The notes beneath the pieces were generated by a model. The model did no database searches, was not told where the DNA came from, and saw nothing but the letters and a program-made list of their open reading frames with translations. This document shows positions 32,889-41,773 of a DNA stretch of 51,842 bases, in pieces. Source of the DNA: Candidatus Goldiibacteriota bacterium (GTDB lineage: Bacteria; Oederibacteriota; JAAXVQ01); NCBI GenBank assembly GCA_020052235.1, contig JAGVPM010000067.1, positions 1 through 51,842 on the forward strand, written 5' to 3'. The position numbers and the translations under genes were made by a program. Position 1 is the first letter of the stretch; every line of letters begins with the position of its first letter.

Positions 32889-33524
32889 TCAACTTTTTAT
32901 AAAAGCTATGATGCTCAAAATCAAAACAACCAATGAGCAAAAAAATACAATGGTTTTTAAAAAAATCTGATAGTGCGGCGTTTTGACCCATTGCATATTT
33001 AATAGAAACGGCAAGCTGCATAATGCGTTTCCAAAAAAAACATTGGTGAAAAAAACCATCCCAAGTACGAGTGTGGGTTGCAATAAAGATAAGAAGCAGG
33101 CAATTAAAAGCGGAGACACCAATGTAAAGCTGGATAACCATCCCAAGGAAAAGGTGGATAAATTCAAATGCGAAGGGTCGGTTAAACGCGCCCATGACAT
33201 TTCAGGAGATGTATGGACAGTTAAAAACAGAAACATAAATATTGCCAACAACATGGTGTTGGCATAGATCAAGCGAATCATCAAATTGGAATTCAGCCAA
33301 TGACCCGCATAGGAACAAATCAAACCCAGGAGCAAATATCCCAGCCAGCGGCCCAAAAAATAACCGGTGATGCGTCCCAGGGTTGGGCGAACAATCCATT
33401 CTCCTTGCAGGTTTGGGAAAGGAATTCCCAAACCTGCGGGCTGCAACCCTACATAGGCAAAAATCGCCGCACCTAATAATAAGGCTATCCAAAAAAGCAT
33501 GGATTCATATACCCTTTCGCCCAT
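32889..33524 (-). CDS. DsbD/CcdA-like polytopic membrane protein
   Basis: The 211-residue protein has about six membrane helices (MLFWIALLLGAAIFAYVGL, YLLLGLICSYAGHWL, LLAIFMFLFLTVH, LLIACFLSLLQPTLVLGMVFF, IFLKTIVFFCSLVVLILSIIAF). The layout is that of the DsbD_2/urease-accessory-like transmembrane family. Members move reducing power or metals across the membrane. No paired catalytic cysteines of a CcdA type are plain here. The frame is open upstream into the palindrome at 33555-33582, so its first ATG there is not trusted. ATG at 33524 or 33500 is more likely. It follows the polyferredoxin gene on the same strand. Confidence 0.7.
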   Translation of the reverse strand: MGERVYESMLFWIALLLGAAIFAYVGLQPAGLGIPFPNLQGEWIVRPTLGRITGYFLGRWLGYLLLGLICSYAGHWLNSNLMIRLIYANTMLLAIFMFLFLTVHTSPEMSWARLTDPSHLNLSTFSLGWLSSFTLVSPLLIACFLSLLQPTLVLGMVFFTNVFFGNALCSLPFLLNMQWVKTPHYQIFLKTIVFFCSLVVLILSIIAFIKS

Positions 33525-33530
33525 CAATGC

Positions 33531-33545
33531 CCTGCCTGTGGCAGG
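33531..33545. repeat. Short inverted repeat beside palindrome copy 2
   Basis: CCTGCC and GGCAGG are separated by TGT. It lies just before the larger palindrome and may be part of the same inserted element. Confidence 0.5.
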
Positions 33546-33554
33546 AATGAATTT

Positions 33555-33582
33555 GTAGGGAACAGGCATGCCTGTTCCCTAC
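33555..33582. repeat. Dispersed palindrome, GTAGGGAACAGG type (copy 2), overlapping a stop codon
   Basis: The 28-base element is a perfect palindrome with arms GTAGGGAACAGGCA. It shares the GTAGGGAAC outer part with copies 1 and 3, but the inner bases differ in a paired way (CAGGCA/TGCCTG against CGGTTT/AAACCG). Its TAG is the stop codon of the polyferredoxin gene. Confidence 0.9.
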
Positions 33583-34766
33583 CTAACGAACACCAACCAA
33601 AGGCACTGGCCGGTTTTTATCCATACGCTTGCCCCCACGGTTCCGGCAACCAGACCCAGGGTCATTACAAAAAACACACGCATCCAACGGCGCGGTTCAA
33701 TTCCGGAGCCTGGTTGAGGTTTGCCCCACTGTGTCCACACAGCTCCGTTCGGGCATTCATCCTCACACCGGCCGCAATGATTGCAGGCGCGTTCAAACAC
33801 AACTTTATCCGTCTGAAGTGTTATGGCTTGCATGGCACACACCGAACGGCAGTGGGCGCACTGCGAACACCGTGAAGCGTCGCACTGTTTTTGAAATGGA
33901 TTAATCTTCCCCACCAAACTTTGCCAAGCGCCGAATGGGCAAACATAGCGGCAAAATATGCGGCGCCCGGTCAGAAACGGCAATACCACGATCAAGCCGA
34001 TGCCCAGGACCGCCACATAAGCAATGTGCAACCCCTGGGTTAGGCCTGCGGTTCCGGCCACATTCTCCGTTACTTTGAACGGACAAACCCATTGGCAAAA
34101 AATCGCCTCACCCTGAAGCCAAGCCAACAACAGCACACTTAACCATACTCCAAAATTCAAATATTTCCAAATTCCTTTCGGTTCCGCAAACTCCCATCGC
34201 GGATGCCTGCGGCCCAGCCGTGAAATGCATTCATCCCAAGCTCCGTATCCGCAAGCCCATGAACACCAGGCTGTGCCCAGCAACAAAGTAAAGGCTAATA
34301 AACCAAAGGCCGCCAAATAAAATGAAATCCCGCTCAGCGGTTCTAGTCCAGTTAGGGCAATGCCTGCATTGGCCAACAGATTCAATAGCATGGCGGCAAG
34401 TGCAATATGACATTGTGAAGTATTTATTTCCCGCACTCCTGCCGCGGGCAAGGGTTGATCCAAAATCACAACCGGCTGAGCCAACAATACGGCCGCCAAA
34501 GTCCCCAGGGCCAAAAGACTGAAAAAACGCAATCGGTAAGGATTAAAGCGCCCTTTTTTTAAAATTTCAAAAACAGTCCAACCAGAAACCGCGCTCCAAA
34601 ATAATAATCCCAGCCAAGCACCCGGACTTTGTAACCGCAGCATCCACCCGAGGGCAAGCACCCCTATAAAAATCCCCACACCCAAACCCGCGGCCGCGCG
34701 GGGATGGATTTTAAACCTCAAGGGGGTGTTCGCTTCCGGCACCCGGAATTGCGGTGACAAGTTCAT
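33579..34766 (-). CDS. NapH/YccM-type membrane polyferredoxin
   Basis: The 395-residue inner-membrane iron-sulfur protein has about seven helices. It carries cytoplasmic-loop motifs of the NapH/NosR family, CGYGAWDEC, CQWVCPF and CRYVCPFGAW, then two ferredoxin-type clusters (CDASRCSQCAHCRSVC and CNHCGRCEDECPNG). Such proteins move electrons between quinol or ferredoxin and periplasmic redox enzymes. Its partner is not in view, but a DsbD-like membrane protein follows. The stop codon is supplied by a dispersed palindrome. The ATG is only a few bases after a -10 box, and no Shine-Dalgarno site is seen. Confidence 0.88.
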   Translation of the reverse strand: MNLSPQFRVPEANTPLRFKIHPRAAAGLGVGIFIGVLALGWMLRLQSPGAWLGLLFWSAVSGWTVFEILKKGRFNPYRLRFFSLLALGTLAAVLLAQPVVILDQPLPAAGVREINTSQCHIALAAMLLNLLANAGIALTGLEPLSGISFYLAAFGLLAFTLLLGTAWCSWACGYGAWDECISRLGRRHPRWEFAEPKGIWKYLNFGVWLSVLLLAWLQGEAIFCQWVCPFKVTENVAGTAGLTQGLHIAYVAVLGIGLIVVLPFLTGRRIFCRYVCPFGAWQSLVGKINPFQKQCDASRCSQCAHCRSVCAMQAITLQTDKVVFERACNHCGRCEDECPNGAVWTQWGKPQPGSGIEPRRWMRVFFVMTLGLVAGTVGASVWIKTGQCLWLVFVR

Positions 34767-34939: not shown

Positions 34940-37069
34940 ATGAAGCCGATTCAGGTTTTTTTTGCAGGGCTCTGTATTGGTTTTATCACCACCCTGTCGC
35001 AATTGACCTTGCTCCGGGAACTCAGCTTAATCTTCCGGGGGCATGAATTATTTTTAGGCTGGACCCTGGCACTGTGGGTCGGAGGAACCGCCTGGGGCTC
35101 GGGCTGGTGGCAGGCCGTTAAACCGAAAACCCATTTTAGTTTTGGCCTGCTTCATGTCCTGATTTTATCCGCAACACTTTTTTTAATCCGTTGGCTCCCG
35201 TTAAGCTCGCCTCTCATGCAAGGAGTAAATTACGGTTTATTGTCCTTGCTTCTGCTCACAGGATTATTCACCTTGCCGCTGGCCGGTTCCGGTGGGCTTT
35301 GGTATGCCTGTGCACTCCATTACCCAAAAACGCACCAGCACCAACTCAGCGCCCTGTTTTCTTGGGAGCTGCTTGGCGCCGGTTTGGCCGGATTGCTCTA
35401 TACCTTCTTTTGGGCCGGGTATTGGAATTCGTGGGGCATCTGCGCCCTGGTGCTGACAATCGTGCTGGTATTCCATTGGTTTGACACTGCCGCCCTCCGC
35501 CTTAAAGTAATCATAGCGGCCGCCTTGGGTTTAGTGGCGGGATTAACTTTTTTCCCGGGTTGGACGGCCATAGACCGCTCGCTGACATTTTTCCAGCCCT
35601 GCCCGGGAAAAAAAATATTTGCCCAACCTACGCAGCGCGGGCATGTTGCCCTGTATCAAAACCAAGAACTCTATTCCCTTTATCTGCAGAATCAATGGAT
35701 ATTCTCGTTTCCCTGGCCTGAACAAAATGAACCGGCCGCACTCATGCCCATGCTTTGGGCATCCCAACCTCAAACCATTGCGCTGCTCGATGGAAATCCG
35801 GAATGGATCCAAGTTCTCCTGCGCCAGCCCAGCATCCAAACCATCGTTATTATCTCCGAAGACCCGCAAGCGTATGCCGTATTGATCCGCCATCTGCCAA
35901 GTGCCTGGAAAGCTCTCTACTCCGATCCCAAGGTCCGGGTGATCCCGGAGGATGGGCGGCGATTTTTAGAAAAAAGCAATATCAAATTCGATATGATCTG
36001 CCTGGCGCTTCCGCTGCCTGAAACCTTGGCCGGCAATCGCTATTACACCTCCGATTTCATTCACACCTTACGCCAACACCTAAGCCGCCACGGGGTCCTG
36101 GAATATGTTTTGCCTTACTCCCCCAATTACCGCCTGGACGCTGAACGCCGGTTGCTCAAAAGCTTGCTGGGTAATTTAAAAACCGCATTCCCCAATACTC
36201 ATTTATTGGCCGGTGAACAACTTTTTTTCCTCGCCACCACTGATCCCACCCCTTCGTTTTTTTCCTCTTCGGATTGGGCTGAACGTTTTCGCAACCATCC
36301 TTTGCGCTCCCGGATTCTCACCCCAGCGCAATTTCCGGTTTTATTTGATCCCAGCCGGTCGCAAAATTTGCAAACTGAATTGAGTAAACCGCCATTCCCG
36401 GTCAATACCGATGCCCATCCGCAAGCTGCCGGAACCTATACGTTCTATTGGTTTTCACAACACTCCCTGCCGCTGCTGGTAATCCCCTGCTTGGGGTTGC
36501 TTGGTTTGGCGGCGTTTGGCATCCGGGCGCTGAAAAAGAATAATTTCCCTTTCTCATGCACTCTCATGGGAGCTGCCGGGGGTATGGGGCTTGCCACCGA
36601 GCTTCTGGTCATCACGGCATTCCAAAGCACCTGCGGAAACTTATGGAAGGAAATCGGATTGTTGTTGGCAGCCTTCATGCTCGGGATGGGCGCGGGTGGC
36701 TGGTGGGGGCGGATGCTTCCCAAACGATTATCCAATCCTTGGTTACATTTCGCCATGCTGGCAAGTCTTTGCATGAGCAGCGCTTTCGCGGTGCACGCCC
36801 TGCCTGGCACAGTTATGCTTTCGCTGATACTTTTGCTGCTCACCGGGGGAACTGTCGGAACAATCTATGCTTTGCTGCTGCAAACAGAAGATAACCAACG
36901 GGCACGCCGGCACTGGAGTGCCGATCTTTGGGGCAGCGCTGTAGGCGGTCTGCTCACCAACACAATCTTCGTACCGCTTTTCGGTTACTGGGCCGGCGGT
37001 ATTTTAGTGTTCCTCACCCTGATTTGGCTGTTCTTCATGGCGCGCTCTGCTCAAAAGCTTGCACCGTGA
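34940..37069 (+). CDS. Membrane protein with central spermidine-synthase-like domain
   Basis: The 709-residue protein has about six membrane helices, then a soluble middle (about 220-480), then about six more helices. It starts as FFAGLCIGFITTLSQLTLLRELSLIFRGHELFLGW, as in membrane-fused spermidine-synthase-like proteins. The soluble part has a Rossmann-type layout (TIALLDGNPEWIQVLL, IIVIISEDPQAYAVLI-like strand, DPKVRVIPEDGRRFLEKSN, FDMICLALPLP, RYYTSDFIHTL). The catalytic aspartates of true spermidine synthase are not obvious. AAGGAG eight bases before ATG 34940 sets the start. The frame converges with the Memo-AMMECR1 gene and overlaps it by 35 bases. No substrate is assigned. Confidence 0.8.
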   Translation: MKPIQVFFAGLCIGFITTLSQLTLLRELSLIFRGHELFLGWTLALWVGGTAWGSGWWQAVKPKTHFSFGLLHVLILSATLFLIRWLPLSSPLMQGVNYGLLSLLLLTGLFTLPLAGSGGLWYACALHYPKTHQHQLSALFSWELLGAGLAGLLYTFFWAGYWNSWGICALVLTIVLVFHWFDTAALRLKVIIAAALGLVAGLTFFPGWTAIDRSLTFFQPCPGKKIFAQPTQRGHVALYQNQELYSLYLQNQWIFSFPWPEQNEPAALMPMLWASQPQTIALLDGNPEWIQVLLRQPSIQTIVIISEDPQAYAVLIRHLPSAWKALYSDPKVRVIPEDGRRFLEKSNIKFDMICLALPLPETLAGNRYYTSDFIHTLRQHLSRHGVLEYVLPYSPNYRLDAERRLLKSLLGNLKTAFPNTHLLAGEQLFFLATTDPTPSFFSSSDWAERFRNHPLRSRILTPAQFPVLFDPSRSQNLQTELSKPPFPVNTDAHPQAAGTYTFYWFSQHSLPLLVIPCLGLLGLAAFGIRALKKNNFPFSCTLMGAAGGMGLATELLVITAFQSTCGNLWKEIGLLLAAFMLGMGAGGWWGRMLPKRLSNPWLHFAMLASLCMSSAFAVHALPGTVMLSLILLLLTGGTVGTIYALLLQTEDNQRARRHWSADLWGSAVGGLLTNTIFVPLFGYWAGGILVFLTLIWLFFMARSAQKLAP

Positions 37070-38576
37070 AGACATACAATTCCGTGGCCGGATCCTGCCA
37101 AGCGCGGGCAGGCAAATGCGCTTTCTGAGCGCAAAGTTCATCTAAAAAGTTTTCCCTGGTCCACCCGGTTTCTTGGGCCACTTGCGGTAAAAACAAACCC
37201 GTGCGGCTTCCGGAACGAACCACCACGCCATGGCGCCCCATGATGATGTCTTCCGTTTTTTTAATTTTCTGCAAGGGAGATAAAAGCGATATTTCAATCG
37301 AGGTCCGGTTGAACTCATTGGCAGTCAGGGGTGAAAAACGCGTATCTTCAAATGCCGCCGCGCATGCCATGCGTTGAATGGCTTCGGATATTGGCAAATA
37401 AGGTTCCGTCATCCCAATGCAGCCGCGAAGTTCGTGTTGTTGCCGCAGCGTAACAAAAACACCGCGTTTTATTTGCATCCACGCCGGAGTGGTGTCTACC
37501 TGGCCGGATGGTTCCAGCCGCAGCTCGTGGGCAATGGCATTGCGGGCCAAGGTCAATAGTGCCTGACGTTGCTCCGGAGATAAAGTTTCGCGGTCTTCCG
37601 CAATGGCGGACACCGCCGTTTGCGGTTTGACTTTTTCGTAAAAAGTCACAGCCGCATATCCCACCACCCGTCCGGAATCGCCCGAGACTTTGCCGGAATG
37701 CAAATATTGCAGAAGCCGGGATTGATCGGCGCCATTGGCCTTGGCGGCAACCATCACTGTTTCCAAAGCTTCCAATCCGCACACCGTGCATTCCAACTGC
37801 GCGATTCCCCGTGTCATCCAAACCCGGTCGGATTGGCGCACCTGTTCCGGGTCCAAACTCAGCACGCTTTGCACCATGGCGGCATCCACACGTTCAGCAT
37901 CCGCAGCGTTGGGAAAATGCGACAAATCAGTTGAGGCAATAAAAACCGCTTGCCGTTGGGCCGCTTGACGGCTCAAGGCTGCACCTATGGCTTGGACTTG
38001 TTCCGGGGTCGCCCGTCCCATAACCAGCGGCACCACTTTGGCGTCAGGCGCCACGCGTTGTAAAAAAGGAATTTGAACTTCCACTGAATGTTCCCGGGCC
38101 CAAGCCAAAGGTTCGGTTTTTATTTCCGGGCATTGCGCCAACAATTCTTTCACTGCCTCAACATCCACCGGATAATCCCCCAAAGGTGTGCGCAAAGCTT
38201 TTCCCGCCCAAATTAAAGCTCCGGCTGCTCCGGAATAATGCGACGTTCCCACGACATAAACCGTGTCCACCTTTTGCCCGGTTAACAATGCCATGCCAAC
38301 TGCCGTGATTTTCCCGGAATAAATATAACCGGCATGCGGCACCAGTAAAGCCTTAACCGGACTTTGTATTTTTATATGCGGCGCGGCTTTCAATGCCTCA
38401 TCAATCCAGGCTTTCAGCTCTTTGGGATCCGCCGGATAGAATGCGCCCGCCACGGCGGGTTCCTTCACGGTTTGCCAAACCGGGGTTTCAGCCCTACAGC
38501 CCATAACACCCGTCACTATAACCAGCCACCCCAAGACGCAACTTAGGTGCATTATTTTTTTACTTAAATTTTTCAT
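37035..38576 (-). CDS. amrB-amrA: Memo-AMMECR1 fusion protein of the AmmeMemoRadiSam system, probably exported
   Basis: The 513-residue protein joins two parts of the AmmeMemoRadiSam trio. The first is the Memo-like domain (AVAGAFYPADPKELKAWID, LLVPHAGYIYSGK, YVVGTSHYSG, HSVEVQIPFLQ, FIASTDLSHFP). The second is an AMMECR1 domain (LTLARNAIAHEL, FVTLRQQHELRGCIGMTEP, FEDTRFSPLT, GVVVRSGSRTGLFLPQV). Both halves are of unknown chemistry. The N-terminus is MKNLSKKIMHLSCVLGWLVIV followed by TGVMGC, a signal with a lipobox-like end (Cys27), so it may be a lipoprotein. AAGGA before ATG 38576 fixes the start. The radical SAM gene lies just upstream. Confidence 0.93.
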   Translation of the reverse strand: MKNLSKKIMHLSCVLGWLVIVTGVMGCRAETPVWQTVKEPAVAGAFYPADPKELKAWIDEALKAAPHIKIQSPVKALLVPHAGYIYSGKITAVGMALLTGQKVDTVYVVGTSHYSGAAGALIWAGKALRTPLGDYPVDVEAVKELLAQCPEIKTEPLAWAREHSVEVQIPFLQRVAPDAKVVPLVMGRATPEQVQAIGAALSRQAAQRQAVFIASTDLSHFPNAADAERVDAAMVQSVLSLDPEQVRQSDRVWMTRGIAQLECTVCGLEALETVMVAAKANGADQSRLLQYLHSGKVSGDSGRVVGYAAVTFYEKVKPQTAVSAIAEDRETLSPEQRQALLTLARNAIAHELRLEPSGQVDTTPAWMQIKRGVFVTLRQQHELRGCIGMTEPYLPISEAIQRMACAAAFEDTRFSPLTANEFNRTSIEISLLSPLQKIKKTEDIIMGRHGVVVRSGSRTGLFLPQVAQETGWTRENFLDELCAQKAHLPARAWQDPATELYVFTVQAFEQSAP

Positions 38577-38606
38577 GGTTAATTTCCTTCTTTTCAGAAA
38601 AATAGT

Positions 38607-38672
38607 TGTCATTTCGAGCGCAGCGAGAAATCTCTTTTAGATTTCTCGTCGCTAAAGCTCCTCGAAATGACA
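38607..38672. repeat. Dispersed inverted repeat, GTCATTTCGAG type
   Basis: TGTCATTTCGAG (38607-38618) is inverted exactly at 38661-38672, and inside it AGCGAGAAATCT (38622-38633) pairs with AGATTTCTCG-CGCT. The element sits between the radical SAM and Memo-AMMECR1 genes. Elements with this core are common short repeats in many bacterial genomes. No U-run follows it. Confidence 0.85.
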
Positions 38673-38679
38673 TTATGCT

Positions 38680-39837
38680 TTACTTCCAAATGCCGGGTAT
38701 CTTGGCATCACAATGCGGACAATGCCCGGCGCGCAAGTGATTTTCCAAAACCACAAAGCCTTCACGATGGATCAGCAATTGCCCGCATTGCGGGCAATTG
38801 GTATTTTCGCCCTCATCACCCGTGACATTTCCCACATAAACAAACCGCAGCCCTTCAGCCAGCGCCAAACGCCGGGCCTGGCGTAAGGTTTCCGCGGGTG
38901 TGGCAGGCAGATTAAGCATACGGAATCCCGGTGAGAAGCGGGAAAAAAACAAGGGTGTTTCCGGTCCCAATTCGTCCCGCACCCATTGCGCCAAAGCACG
39001 CACTTGAGGGGCGGAATCGTTCCATGAAGGAACCATCAAATTCACGACCTCCAATTGAACATGCGAATTGGCAATAATTTTCAAGGTGCGCAATACCGGG
39101 GACAATTCCCCTCCCACCACGGTCCGGTAATAGCGGGGATCAAACCCTTTCAAATCAATTTTAATTACATCCAAATAAGGCAACAACCGTTTTAATGGCT
39201 CGGGTTGAATATACCCTGCGGAAATCATGATGTTGTACAGCCCGGCTTGATGCGCCAAACGCGCGGTTTCCAGCATATACTCATAAAATACCACGGGTTC
39301 CGAATAGGTGTAGGCTATGGACCGGCTGCGGCTTTGCAGCGCGGCTTGAACCGCAGCCTCAGGCGCAAGATAATCCGCGGGCAATTGCTCGGGATTGGCT
39401 TGGGAGAGCGTCCAATTTTGACAAAAATCGCAGTTTAAATTACACCCGGCCGTGGCAATTGAAAATGCCTTTGAACCCGGCAGGAGATGGAAAATAGGCT
39501 TTTTTTCAATGGGGTCCACGTGAACTGCGGCCGCTCGGCCATAGACCAACGTATGCAAATACCCGCCGGAATTAATCCGGACCCGGCATTGTCCTTTGGC
39601 ACCCTCGGGCAAAAAACATTGTTTGGGGCATAATTGGCATAAAACCCCGCGGCAACGCCGGGTCCAAAATAAGGCATCATGCACAAATGAAGATGACGTC
39701 GTATTGATCGAGAGCAGGAAACGGCTTGCGTATCCGCCGCCCCAAAACAAACACAGCGCGGCAGTCAAAGCCAGCCAAAAACCGGGGAAAAACAGCGCGG
39801 CCCTGCGAGAAACCGGATGTTTTCCCGTTGGGATCAT
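38680..39837 (-). CDS. amrS: AmmeMemoRadiSam system radical SAM enzyme with N-terminal membrane or Tat-like signal
   Basis: The 385-residue protein binds a [4Fe-4S] cluster through C-N-L-N-C-D-F-C (Cys132, Cys136, Cys139), the CxxxCxxC radical SAM motif. It is preceded by the CxLCPxxCxLPEGAKGQC segment (Cys67-Cys84) typical of this family, and followed by SYTYSEP-like, VIKIDLKGFD and VNLMVPSWND. The C-terminus has a rubredoxin-like CPQCG...CPHC pair. The first 35 residues contain SRRAALFF and a hydrophobic helix (FWLALTAALCLFWGG), like a Tat or anchor signal. The gene begins two bases before the preceding winged-helix stop clears, with no clear ribosome binding site. Confidence 0.93.
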   Translation of the reverse strand: MIPTGKHPVSRRAALFFPGFWLALTAALCLFWGGGYASRFLLSINTTSSSFVHDALFWTRRCRGVLCQLCPKQCFLPEGAKGQCRVRINSGGYLHTLVYGRAAAVHVDPIEKKPIFHLLPGSKAFSIATAGCNLNCDFCQNWTLSQANPEQLPADYLAPEAAVQAALQSRSRSIAYTYSEPVVFYEYMLETARLAHQAGLYNIMISAGYIQPEPLKRLLPYLDVIKIDLKGFDPRYYRTVVGGELSPVLRTLKIIANSHVQLEVVNLMVPSWNDSAPQVRALAQWVRDELGPETPLFFSRFSPGFRMLNLPATPAETLRQARRLALAEGLRFVYVGNVTGDEGENTNCPQCGQLLIHREGFVVLENHLRAGHCPHCDAKIPGIWK

Positions 39838-39839
39838 GA

Positions 39840-40241
39840 CTATGAACTGATGGATTTACCGTTTTTTAAAATCTTATAAATAACGCGCAACCGCCCTTCG
39901 CGTGTCCGGCACAGGTGGACAAATTGATTAACCAAATCATGCAAGCGGCGCTCTTTGGCATTGTCGGGCGACAGGTCATAATTATACTCAAACTTTTTCC
40001 CGTTCTTAATTTCACGGAGCATGCCTTCTGCGCTTAATTCCTGGAGTTCATTTTTAATTTGATCTGCCGGACGGTTCAGCGCTTTGGACAATTCGCTTAT
40101 TTTATAAGGTGTATGCGGATGTTCGTGAAAATAATTAACCAGTTCCCATTTGATGAAGGAATTCACAAAACGATACATAAACTGCTCCATGGGTTCATCC
40201 AAACCCATGAGGCTGTGTAATCCATCATCATCCAAAAACAT
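39840..40241 (-). CDS. Winged-helix DNA-binding protein, first gene of the AmmeMemoRadiSam cluster
   Basis: The 133-residue protein has a winged-helix core: IKWELVNYFHEHPHTPYKISELSKALNRPADQIKNELQELSAEGMLREI, that is helix, HTH and recognition helix, followed by a beta wing (GKKFEYNYDL). A C-terminal helix (RRLHDLVNQFVHLCRTREGRLRVIYKIL) may serve for dimers. It is probably a transcription regulator. Only two bases separate its stop from the radical SAM start. It lies back to back with a histidine kinase on the other strand. The specific family is not known to me. Confidence 0.78.
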   Translation of the reverse strand: MFLDDDGLHSLMGLDEPMEQFMYRFVNSFIKWELVNYFHEHPHTPYKISELSKALNRPADQIKNELQELSAEGMLREIKNGKKFEYNYDLSPDNAKERRLHDLVNQFVHLCRTREGRLRVIYKILKNGKSISS

Positions 40242-40447
40242 AAATGCGGCCCCCTCGTGCCCTGTCGCGTTATAACACTATCCGCGTATCTTATCATCCC
40301 GGCGGTTCTTGTCAAGGATTTCGCCGATTTTTTCAAACTTTTTCATGTACTTTTACCTGCGTTTTCACTATACTATTTTTTCCTTACACGCCAAGTTCCA
40401 ACGCAATTCCACACCCTCATTTCCCTAGCGGCAGGAGCTCAGAAGTG

Positions 40448-41773
40448 ATGCAAGCCGGATTCGATCAATTCAACGAAGCCATTCTGCCCATTCACGGTTC
40501 TTTGACCCGTTCCAAAATACTTTTAAACACCCTGCAAAGCTGCCAAAAACTTTTTCAAGCCGAGGAAAGCGCCGTATTAATGCCGATCCCGCATGCGCAC
40601 GAATTGGAAGTGCTTTGCCTGCGTGAACAAAAGCCCAAGCGGATTAAACGCTTCCGCATTGCCAGGAACCACGGCATTGAATGGTGGCTTTACTCATTGG
40701 GCAAACCCTTGGTGGGGCCGGGCGCCATTATCCGGCTTCCCGCTTCGCCGGCCTTGAATGATGCTCCGCCTCATTTCCAGCCCCAACATATCCGCAGTTT
40801 TATGGCCATCCCCCTCAAAATCGGTTCCCGCCATAAAGGAACCCTGTTGGTCATCAATCCGCCCGCGGAGAATAATTTCCACCAACACGATCTTAACCAA
40901 CTGCGCCTGCTGGCGCAGCATACGGTTTTGGCGCTCGAGAATGCCGCGGATTACGAATCCCTGCGGTCCCTCAACCTTGAGCTCGGCCGGCAGGTCAAAG
41001 TCACGACCGCGCAGTTATTGAATGCCAATGAAACCCTGCGGCATGCGAATGTGGCAAAATCCGAATTAATTTCCATGGTTTCTCATGAGCTCCGCACTCC
41101 GATTACCGCCATTTCCGGTTTTGCCAAGCTGTTGTTAAAAGCCAAAACCAATGCATTAACCGATGAACAGGCGCAATTTTTCCATATCATCCAAAAACAT
41201 TCGGAAAACCTCGAACGCATGATCACCGACTTGCTCGAAATTACAAAAATTGAACAAGGACGTTTGGATATACACCACGACCGCCTTTCGTTGAATTCCC
41301 TTTTAAACGAAGCCATACTTTCCCTGCACGCTTGCCTTCCTGATCAGGAAAAACGCATCCGGGTCTCGCCTTCGGAAGAACCCGCCATTCTTTACGGCGA
41401 CCGCATGCGCCTGCTGCAAGTCATTAATAATTTTTTAACCAACGCCCTCAAATATTCCCCGGCCGACACTCCGGTGGACGCCACGGTTACGGCCCAAGCC
41501 GACCAGGTTTGCCTTGCCGTGGAAAATTCCGGCCAGCCTTTGACTCCCGATCAATTGGAAAAAGTATTTGAAAAATTCTTCCGGATTAAAATCAATGCCA
41601 CCCAGAACATTCCCGGCAGCGGCTTGGGTTTGGCCATTTCAAAAAAACTCATTCAAATGCACGAAGGGCGCATCTGGGCGGAAAACCGCGCCAACTCGAG
41701 GCTCGCCTTCTGTTTCTGCCTGCCGCGGCATCAGGAAACAACCGATGGTCTTAATGGAACAACGGCCAAGTAA
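40448..41773 (+). CDS. Soluble GAF-domain histidine kinase
   Basis: The 441-residue protein has an N-terminal GAF-like sensor (to about residue 190, MAIPLKIGSRHKGTLLVINPP), a short coiled coil, a HisKA domain (LISMVSHELRTPITAISGFAKLLL, phospho-His in SHELRTP), and HATPase boxes N (NNFLTNALKYSPAD), G1-like (FEKFFRIK) and G2 (GSGLGLAISKKLI). No membrane helix is seen, so the signal is intracellular. The frame is open from 40244, but AGGAG lies about ten bases before ATG 40448 and the earlier part looks like leader. No receiver gene lies next to it, so it is an orphan kinase in this window. It overlaps the convergent small membrane gene by 23 bases. Confidence 0.88.
   Translation: MQAGFDQFNEAILPIHGSLTRSKILLNTLQSCQKLFQAEESAVLMPIPHAHELEVLCLREQKPKRIKRFRIARNHGIEWWLYSLGKPLVGPGAIIRLPASPALNDAPPHFQPQHIRSFMAIPLKIGSRHKGTLLVINPPAENNFHQHDLNQLRLLAQHTVLALENAADYESLRSLNLELGRQVKVTTAQLLNANETLRHANVAKSELISMVSHELRTPITAISGFAKLLLKAKTNALTDEQAQFFHIIQKHSENLERMITDLLEITKIEQGRLDIHHDRLSLNSLLNEAILSLHACLPDQEKRIRVSPSEEPAILYGDRMRLLQVINNFLTNALKYSPADTPVDATVTAQADQVCLAVENSGQPLTPDQLEKVFEKFFRIKINATQNIPGSGLGLAISKKLIQMHEGRIWAENRANSRLAFCFCLPRHQETTDGLNGTTAK

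Follow-up and report, generated by a model that had tools for sequence, protein, structure and literature searches.

A Candidatus Goldiibacteriota bacterium appears to encode the AmmeMemoRadiSam system twice. In our reading, which we regard as fairly probable, one version acts outside the cytoplasm and a complete cytoplasmic version accompanies it in the same cell; this estimate includes the roles proposed below for partner proteins. The recurrence of such an envelope-facing set in many bacterial phyla is surprising, since the reducing, SAM-rich cytoplasm is regarded as a requirement of radical SAM enzymes. The genes of interest lie in a window of 51,842 nucleotides, by which we mean the whole stretch of DNA that was analyzed. 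The genome to which it belongs is called G000 in the following.

Results

Gene content of the locus

Three consecutive genes on the minus strand (37035-40241) encode a wHTH DNA-binding protein, a radical SAM enzyme (AmrS) and a Memo-AMMECR1 fusion. This row had been described in an earlier note on the same DNA, and profile searches bear it out. AmrS (385 aa, 38680..39837) matches TIGR04337 with 354 bits (cut-off 220). The fusion (513 aa, 37035..38576), a predicted lipoprotein, matches TIGR04336 (Memo) with 252 bits (cut-off 26) and TIGR04335 (AMMECR1) with 169 bits (cut-off 99), in addition to PF01875 and PF01871. Gene neighbourhood is the basis on which the two proteins would belong to one AmmeMemoRadiSam pathway. 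The wHTH protein (133 aa, 39840..40241), encoded directly upstream of amrS, gives weak matches to PF25212, PF03965 and TIGR02698. Divergent from its gene is that of a GAF-HisKA-HATPase histidine kinase (40244-41773), and genome G006 has this wHTH/kinase pair next to AmrS as well. The earlier idea of a dedicated regulatory switch is a weak one; G006 is the only other genome in which the arrangement was found.

On the other side of the cluster, the gene for a 14-TM protein with a central spermidine-synthase-like (SAM-fold) domain (34940..37069, plus strand; PF01564, PRK03612) is convergent with the fusion gene, and the 3' ends of the two overlap. Beyond it, on the minus strand, are the genes for a NapH/NosR-type membrane polyferredoxin (33579..34766; Fer4_5 and two 4Fe-4S motifs), which is a candidate electron donor, and for an adjoining small polytopic membrane protein (32889..33569). 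The latter gave no match in a Pfam search; it sits where DsbD_2-type proteins follow NapH in loci L052 and L054.

Signals, start sites and motifs of AmrS and the fusion

The AF2 model of AmrS (pLDDT 93) has a helix at residues 11-33 ahead of the catalytic domain. Together with hydropathy and the extension found in G006, it points to a single TM anchor at residues 13-33 (39739..39801, minus strand) with a K/H/R-rich N side. Three K+R precede the helix and one follows it, a bias that favours N-in/C-out insertion. The other motifs are likewise on the minus strand. The radical SAM triad CxxxCxxC is kept (Cys132/136/139; 39421..39444). An N-terminal CxxCPxxC...C motif (Cys67/70/74/84; 39586..39639), which may hold an auxiliary cluster, is shared by every aligned homologue that extends this far and is invariant in A3. 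The C-terminus has zinc-ribbon-like Cys pairs (Cys348/351/373/376; 38710..38796). Both the best fold match of the AF2 model (target-normalised TM up to 0.83) and the closest PDB sequence match are PFL-activating enzyme.

AmrS starts at 39837, two bases past the wHTH stop, and the extended AmrS of G006 likewise starts directly after a wHTH gene; the two proteins align through the helix (WLALTAALCLFWGGG / WLLLVAAFTIFWAGG). A start at an internal GTG (AmrS codon 52) would drop the helix, and no SD site was found for this codon. The likely start of the fusion is the ATG at 38576, which is preceded by the SD site GAAGGAAA and gives the N-terminus MKNLSKKIMHLSCVLGWLVIVTGVMGC... The ATG of the longest open reading frame, at 38612 and 36 bp longer, was rejected; it has no SD site and adjoins a genome-wide repeat. 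This repeat is an imperfect, REP-like palindrome (TCATTTCGAGGAGCTTTAGCGACGAGAAAT..., 38607-38679) between amrS and the fusion gene. When up to 3 mismatches are allowed, its 30-mer is found at 20 genomic sites, and a reversed control gave none.

The signal peptide of the fusion (MKNLSKKIMHLSCVLGWLVIVTGVMG followed by C; 38496..38576, minus strand) ends in a VMGC lipobox with the cysteine at position 27. Sequence and pattern agree with a lipoprotein (MKNLSKK...VTGVMG with Cys at the end), and the lipoprotein signal peptidase LspA is present in the genome. The Memo domain (37647..38462) and the AMMECR1 domain with its LRGCIG motif (37053..37553), both on the minus strand, align to the MEMO1 structures 7kq8 and 3bcz and to the AMMECR1 structures 1vaj, 1zq7 and 1wsc, respectively. 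The metal ligands of MEMO1 are His49, His81 and Cys244 (PMC11081632). The window Memo has the same kind of His/His/Cys ligands (the His of PHAGY, the His of TSHYSG and the Cys of TVCG); of the exported Memo proteins, 44 of 45 retain the triad, as do all lone Memo proteins whose sequences cover these alignment columns.

Conservation of the signals among homologues

AmrS was found in 49 of 59 genomes, with N-termini of two kinds. Short N-termini begin about 15-20 residues ahead of the first CxxC, and extended ones include a hydrophobic stretch. In a small AmrS tree all extended sequences are in one 17-row clade (support 100/99), together with three short rows. In a tree of 138 rows the envelope lineage is the 96-row side (SH-aLRT 87), with Tat-type, plain-anchor and split forms; these signal classes were assigned by hydropathy and regular expressions, and the Tat labels of the tree are loose. 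As judged from these trees, envelope AmrS forms a lineage of its own, apart from most cytoplasmic AmrS. In many of its members, one polypeptide carries both a clear RRxFLK Tat signal and the catalytic domain.

The envelope lineage occurs in about 18 phyla, with phylum names taken from genome titles and most genomes being MAGs. The contigs sampled were the best 80 of 564 matches to an envelope-type query and are therefore no census. They came from bins of Omnitrophota, Goldiibacteriota, Lentisphaerae/Verrucomicrobia, Zixibacteria, Acidobacteria, Aminicenantes, Calditrichota, KSB1, Elusimicrobia, Chloroflexi, Deltaproteobacteria, Bacteroidota and others, and one was archaeal. The archaeal contig (L108, an Aenigmatarchaeota bin) encodes a Tat-like AmrS, and the N-terminus of its Memo ORF is lipobox-like; it may be contamination.

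The signal of the fusion is conserved as well, and the hydrophobic VMGC signal reported earlier can be taken as real: 44 of 45 AMMECR1-fused Memo proteins in the sample have a hydrophobic export signal, and in the sole exception (L092) a hydrophobic run precedes the assigned start. The 42 lone Memo proteins comprise 31 without a signal, most of which start about four residues before the domain, 6 that are ambiguous, 1 that is truncated and 4 that score as having a signal. Two of these four are cut-off fusions (L025, L082). With cut-off and truncated rows left out and ambiguous rows counted as having no signal, fusion and export signal are strongly associated (44/1 vs 2/37, Fisher p 3e-20). When extended AmrS and exported fusion were compared by genome, 13 had both, 2 and 3 had one only and 41 had neither (p 1.3e-8). 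Three genomes (G004, G050 and G058) encode an exported fusion, and no clear extended AmrS was found in them; the AmrS of G058 is of the split type.

Aligning the N-termini of homologues, a check that the earlier note had itself proposed, indicated that the extensions are real, conserved and common, well beyond what chance would produce. Homologues that begin past the hydrophobic segment do exist, but as a separate cytoplasmic paralogue, and one of these is encoded in G000. This genome has a second, signal-less set with a short AmrS on contig C68, a lone Memo of 287 aa on C82 and a lone AMMECR1 of 182 aa on C106. Such a complete second set suggests two sets for two compartments; judging by the presence or absence of signals, G000 apparently has one full set for each side of the membrane. 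Since homologues share these N-terminal signals and conserve them, we take the signals as real and, in line with the earlier note, regard a set facing the membrane or the periplasm as the best reading, with secretion itself predicted from sequence.

Export route

The stretch SRRAALFF ahead of the AmrS helix had been read as Tat-like. It is a poor Tat motif, and RR is absent from the AmrS of G006, which is the closest homologue whose N-terminus is intact, as well as from those of G026, G037, G039 and G040. Searches for TatC and TatA found neither in G000, which is 99.3% complete, but detected the two proteins in G002 and G006. Tat export of AmrS was accordingly rejected for this organism, and a Sec-inserted N-in/C-out anchor is likelier on the sequence features. 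In RR-less AmrS anchors the K+R bias is weaker, with more charges on the N side in 18, equal numbers in 14 and fewer in 11. Since no Tat system was found in G000, AmrS would need to cross in an unfolded state by way of Sec/YidC and gain its [4Fe-4S] clusters outside. To our knowledge there is no established precedent for such loading, and we know of no transporter that brings SAM to the periplasm. In the Tat-type relatives, export of the folded enzyme can solve the problem of cluster loading.

Neighbours of envelope AmrS

Clustering of neighbouring genes identified the spermidine-synthase-like polytopic protein, absent from the earlier note, as the one encoded most often beside envelope AmrS (53 loci). 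It is present in 46 of 89 longer envelope loci vs 0 of 9 cytoplasmic loci, the latter being the few that were long enough. In the AF2 model of the window protein seven helices lie on each side of the central domain (35552..36409, plus strand), which matches PAT structures, including 1uir, and thus has the spermidine-synthase fold. This domain is predicted to be outside in 33 of 33 homologues by the positive-inside rule (loop K+R 531 vs 150). The catalytic acids of PAT enzymes (the Asp of GGGDG and D[ST]xDP) were not found; the family mostly has A/V/I/L and lPxP...NRFYT at these places, and the glycine motif of the window protein is degenerate (LLDGNP). A true spermidine synthase/PAT at 34940-37069 was rejected on account of the replaced acids. 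One locus has a single ORF of 1149 aa (L130:11617-15063) in which the spermidine-synthase-like membrane protein is joined to FMN_bind and Fer4_5; this fusion is a direct hint of a functional link.

NapH/NosR-type carriers recur beside envelope AmrS in a minority of loci, and a NapH-like homologue has the same arrangement in G002. FMN_bind, DsbD_2 and DUF362 proteins and exported nitroreductases are less frequent neighbours than the spermidine-synthase-like protein. A DUF362-type protein is encoded directly upstream of envelope AmrS in 15 loci (L113:7770-8786, L075:7901-8851 and 13 more), several with Tat-like N-termini. The neighbours of cytoplasmic AmrS recognised by eye (for example shikimate dehydrogenase-like, Maf-like and CBS-domain proteins) suggested no link.

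In a split sub-clade (support 97) AmrS has no signal and Memo has one; there, AmrS may therefore act in the cytoplasm. The anchor and a GLxPxEAxYW linker form a separate small upstream ORF in L081, L085, L115 and L120, and the C-terminal tail of a NosR-like FMN_bind/Fer4_5 protein in L066 and L099. Hydropathy places this tail outside, past the final TM and opposite the cytoplasmic iron-sulphur part, so the AmrS core would either be exported by another route or stay inside. A programmed frameshift joining the two parts was also considered. The ORFs are separated by gaps in L081 and L085 and overlap by a few bases in L066, L115 and L120; separate genes are thus likelier, although this is not proven.

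Discussion

The sequences show conserved signals, two sets in parallel, an association of fusion with signal, and partner genes; from these we infer a model of export, topology, electron and SAM supply and substrate. A single N-terminal helix in N-in/C-out orientation would anchor AmrS in the inner membrane, so that the radical SAM domain of the enzyme would face the periplasm. Memo-AMMECR1 would be a lipoprotein on the same face, carrying the Fe/Cu ligand triad of MEMO1. The NapH/NosR-type polyferredoxin may carry electrons across the membrane to the clusters of AmrS, while the 14-TM protein may supply, bind or use SAM on the outer side, where it might methylate exported targets. AmrS itself, being similar to PFL activase, may abstract hydrogen from a protein or small molecule that is handled by Memo-AMMECR1; we know of no glycyl-radical partner for it. 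The broader proposal, that a radical SAM system operates outside the cytoplasm in many phyla, with SAM coming via the 14-TM protein and electrons via NapH/NosR/FMN_bind carriers, is more tentative, and we consider it somewhat less likely than not.

The main competitor is a topology in which AmrS is tethered with its catalytic domain on the cytoplasmic side (N-out/C-in) and only Memo-AMMECR1 is exported; cross-talk would then occur via polytopic proteins or by modification of the lipoprotein or of a membrane substrate before export. This would leave the enzyme where SAM and reductant are, would agree with the failure to find Tat in G000, and fits the finding that RR-less anchors are not uniformly N-in. 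However, the charges around the window anchor favour the opposite orientation, the true Tat signals of many relatives would export the catalytic domain, and the linker tail in L066 and L099 is predicted to lie across the membrane from the cytoplasmic iron-sulphur part. We consider this topology unlikely, and the main reason for giving it as much weight as we do is the split sub-clade, which pairs signal-less AmrS with exported Memo.

Two further explanations concern the N-terminus of AmrS. If the assembly had missed a Tat system, AmrS might be exported folded and loaded with clusters, as SRRAALFF and the strong Tat motifs of relatives would suggest. Given the completeness of G000, the detection of TatC and TatA in G002 and G006 by the same searches, and the lack of RR in G006, we regard this as quite improbable. 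That the N-termini are miscalled starts of ordinary cytoplasmic enzymes is harder still to believe. The internal GTG does exist and cytoplasmic homologues begin near it, but it has no SD site, the extension is kept in G006 and across about 18 phyla, and a real short paralogue is present in the same genome; we rejected miscalling on these grounds.

The envelope set is apparently an undescribed, widespread variant of the known but uncharacterised AmmeMemoRadiSam system; in the open full-text literature we found no account of AmmeMemoRadiSam biology and none of a radical SAM enzyme that is exported. The conservation of Memo and AMMECR1 reaches from archaea to humans, with no primary function known to us. 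A compartment-specific duplicate narrows the chemistry, which must make sense outside the cell, and the recurrent neighbours (SAM-fold membrane protein, electron carriers and DUF362) provide concrete candidate partners. If the enzyme is truly periplasmic, the periplasm must provide SAM and low-potential electrons, a supply that is outside the accepted picture.

Comparison with known systems

The nearest solved fold to the AmrS core is PFL activating enzyme (3cb8, 3c8f), from which AmrS differs by its N-terminal CxxCPxxC...C motif, its C-terminal zinc-ribbon-like domain and its membrane anchor. Human MEMO1 (7kq8, 3bcz) shares the Memo fold and the His/His/Cys ligands with the window fusion; it is, however, a separate protein, studied as an intracellular iron- and copper-binding protein, whereas the window Memo follows an export signal and forms one protein with AMMECR1. 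For the 14-TM protein, the fungal 7TM histidine methyltransferase NHMT offers a parallel, in which the missing GxG(D/E)G acid identifies an enzyme that is not a spermidine synthase and acts on secreted proteins (PMC10349129). Like the bacterial protein, it combines TM helices with a spermidine-synthase-like SAM domain that lacks this acid. It has seven helices, whereas the bacterial protein has 7+7 around the domain, and the likeness is one of architecture. With NapH/NosR-type carriers the locus has Fer4_5 and ferredoxin motifs in common, and FMN_bind in several related loci; here these carriers are encoded near AmrS, to which they may transfer electrons. Finally, all three families of the known AmmeMemoRadiSam system (TIGR04335, TIGR04336 and TIGR04337) score above cut-off in the window, and its radical SAM, auxiliary-Cys and metal-site residues are also conserved. 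In contrast to the known system, the window set has a Memo-AMMECR1 fusion that is a predicted lipoprotein, an AmrS with a predicted anchor, and membrane and electron-transfer neighbours, and it coexists with a cytoplasmic set.
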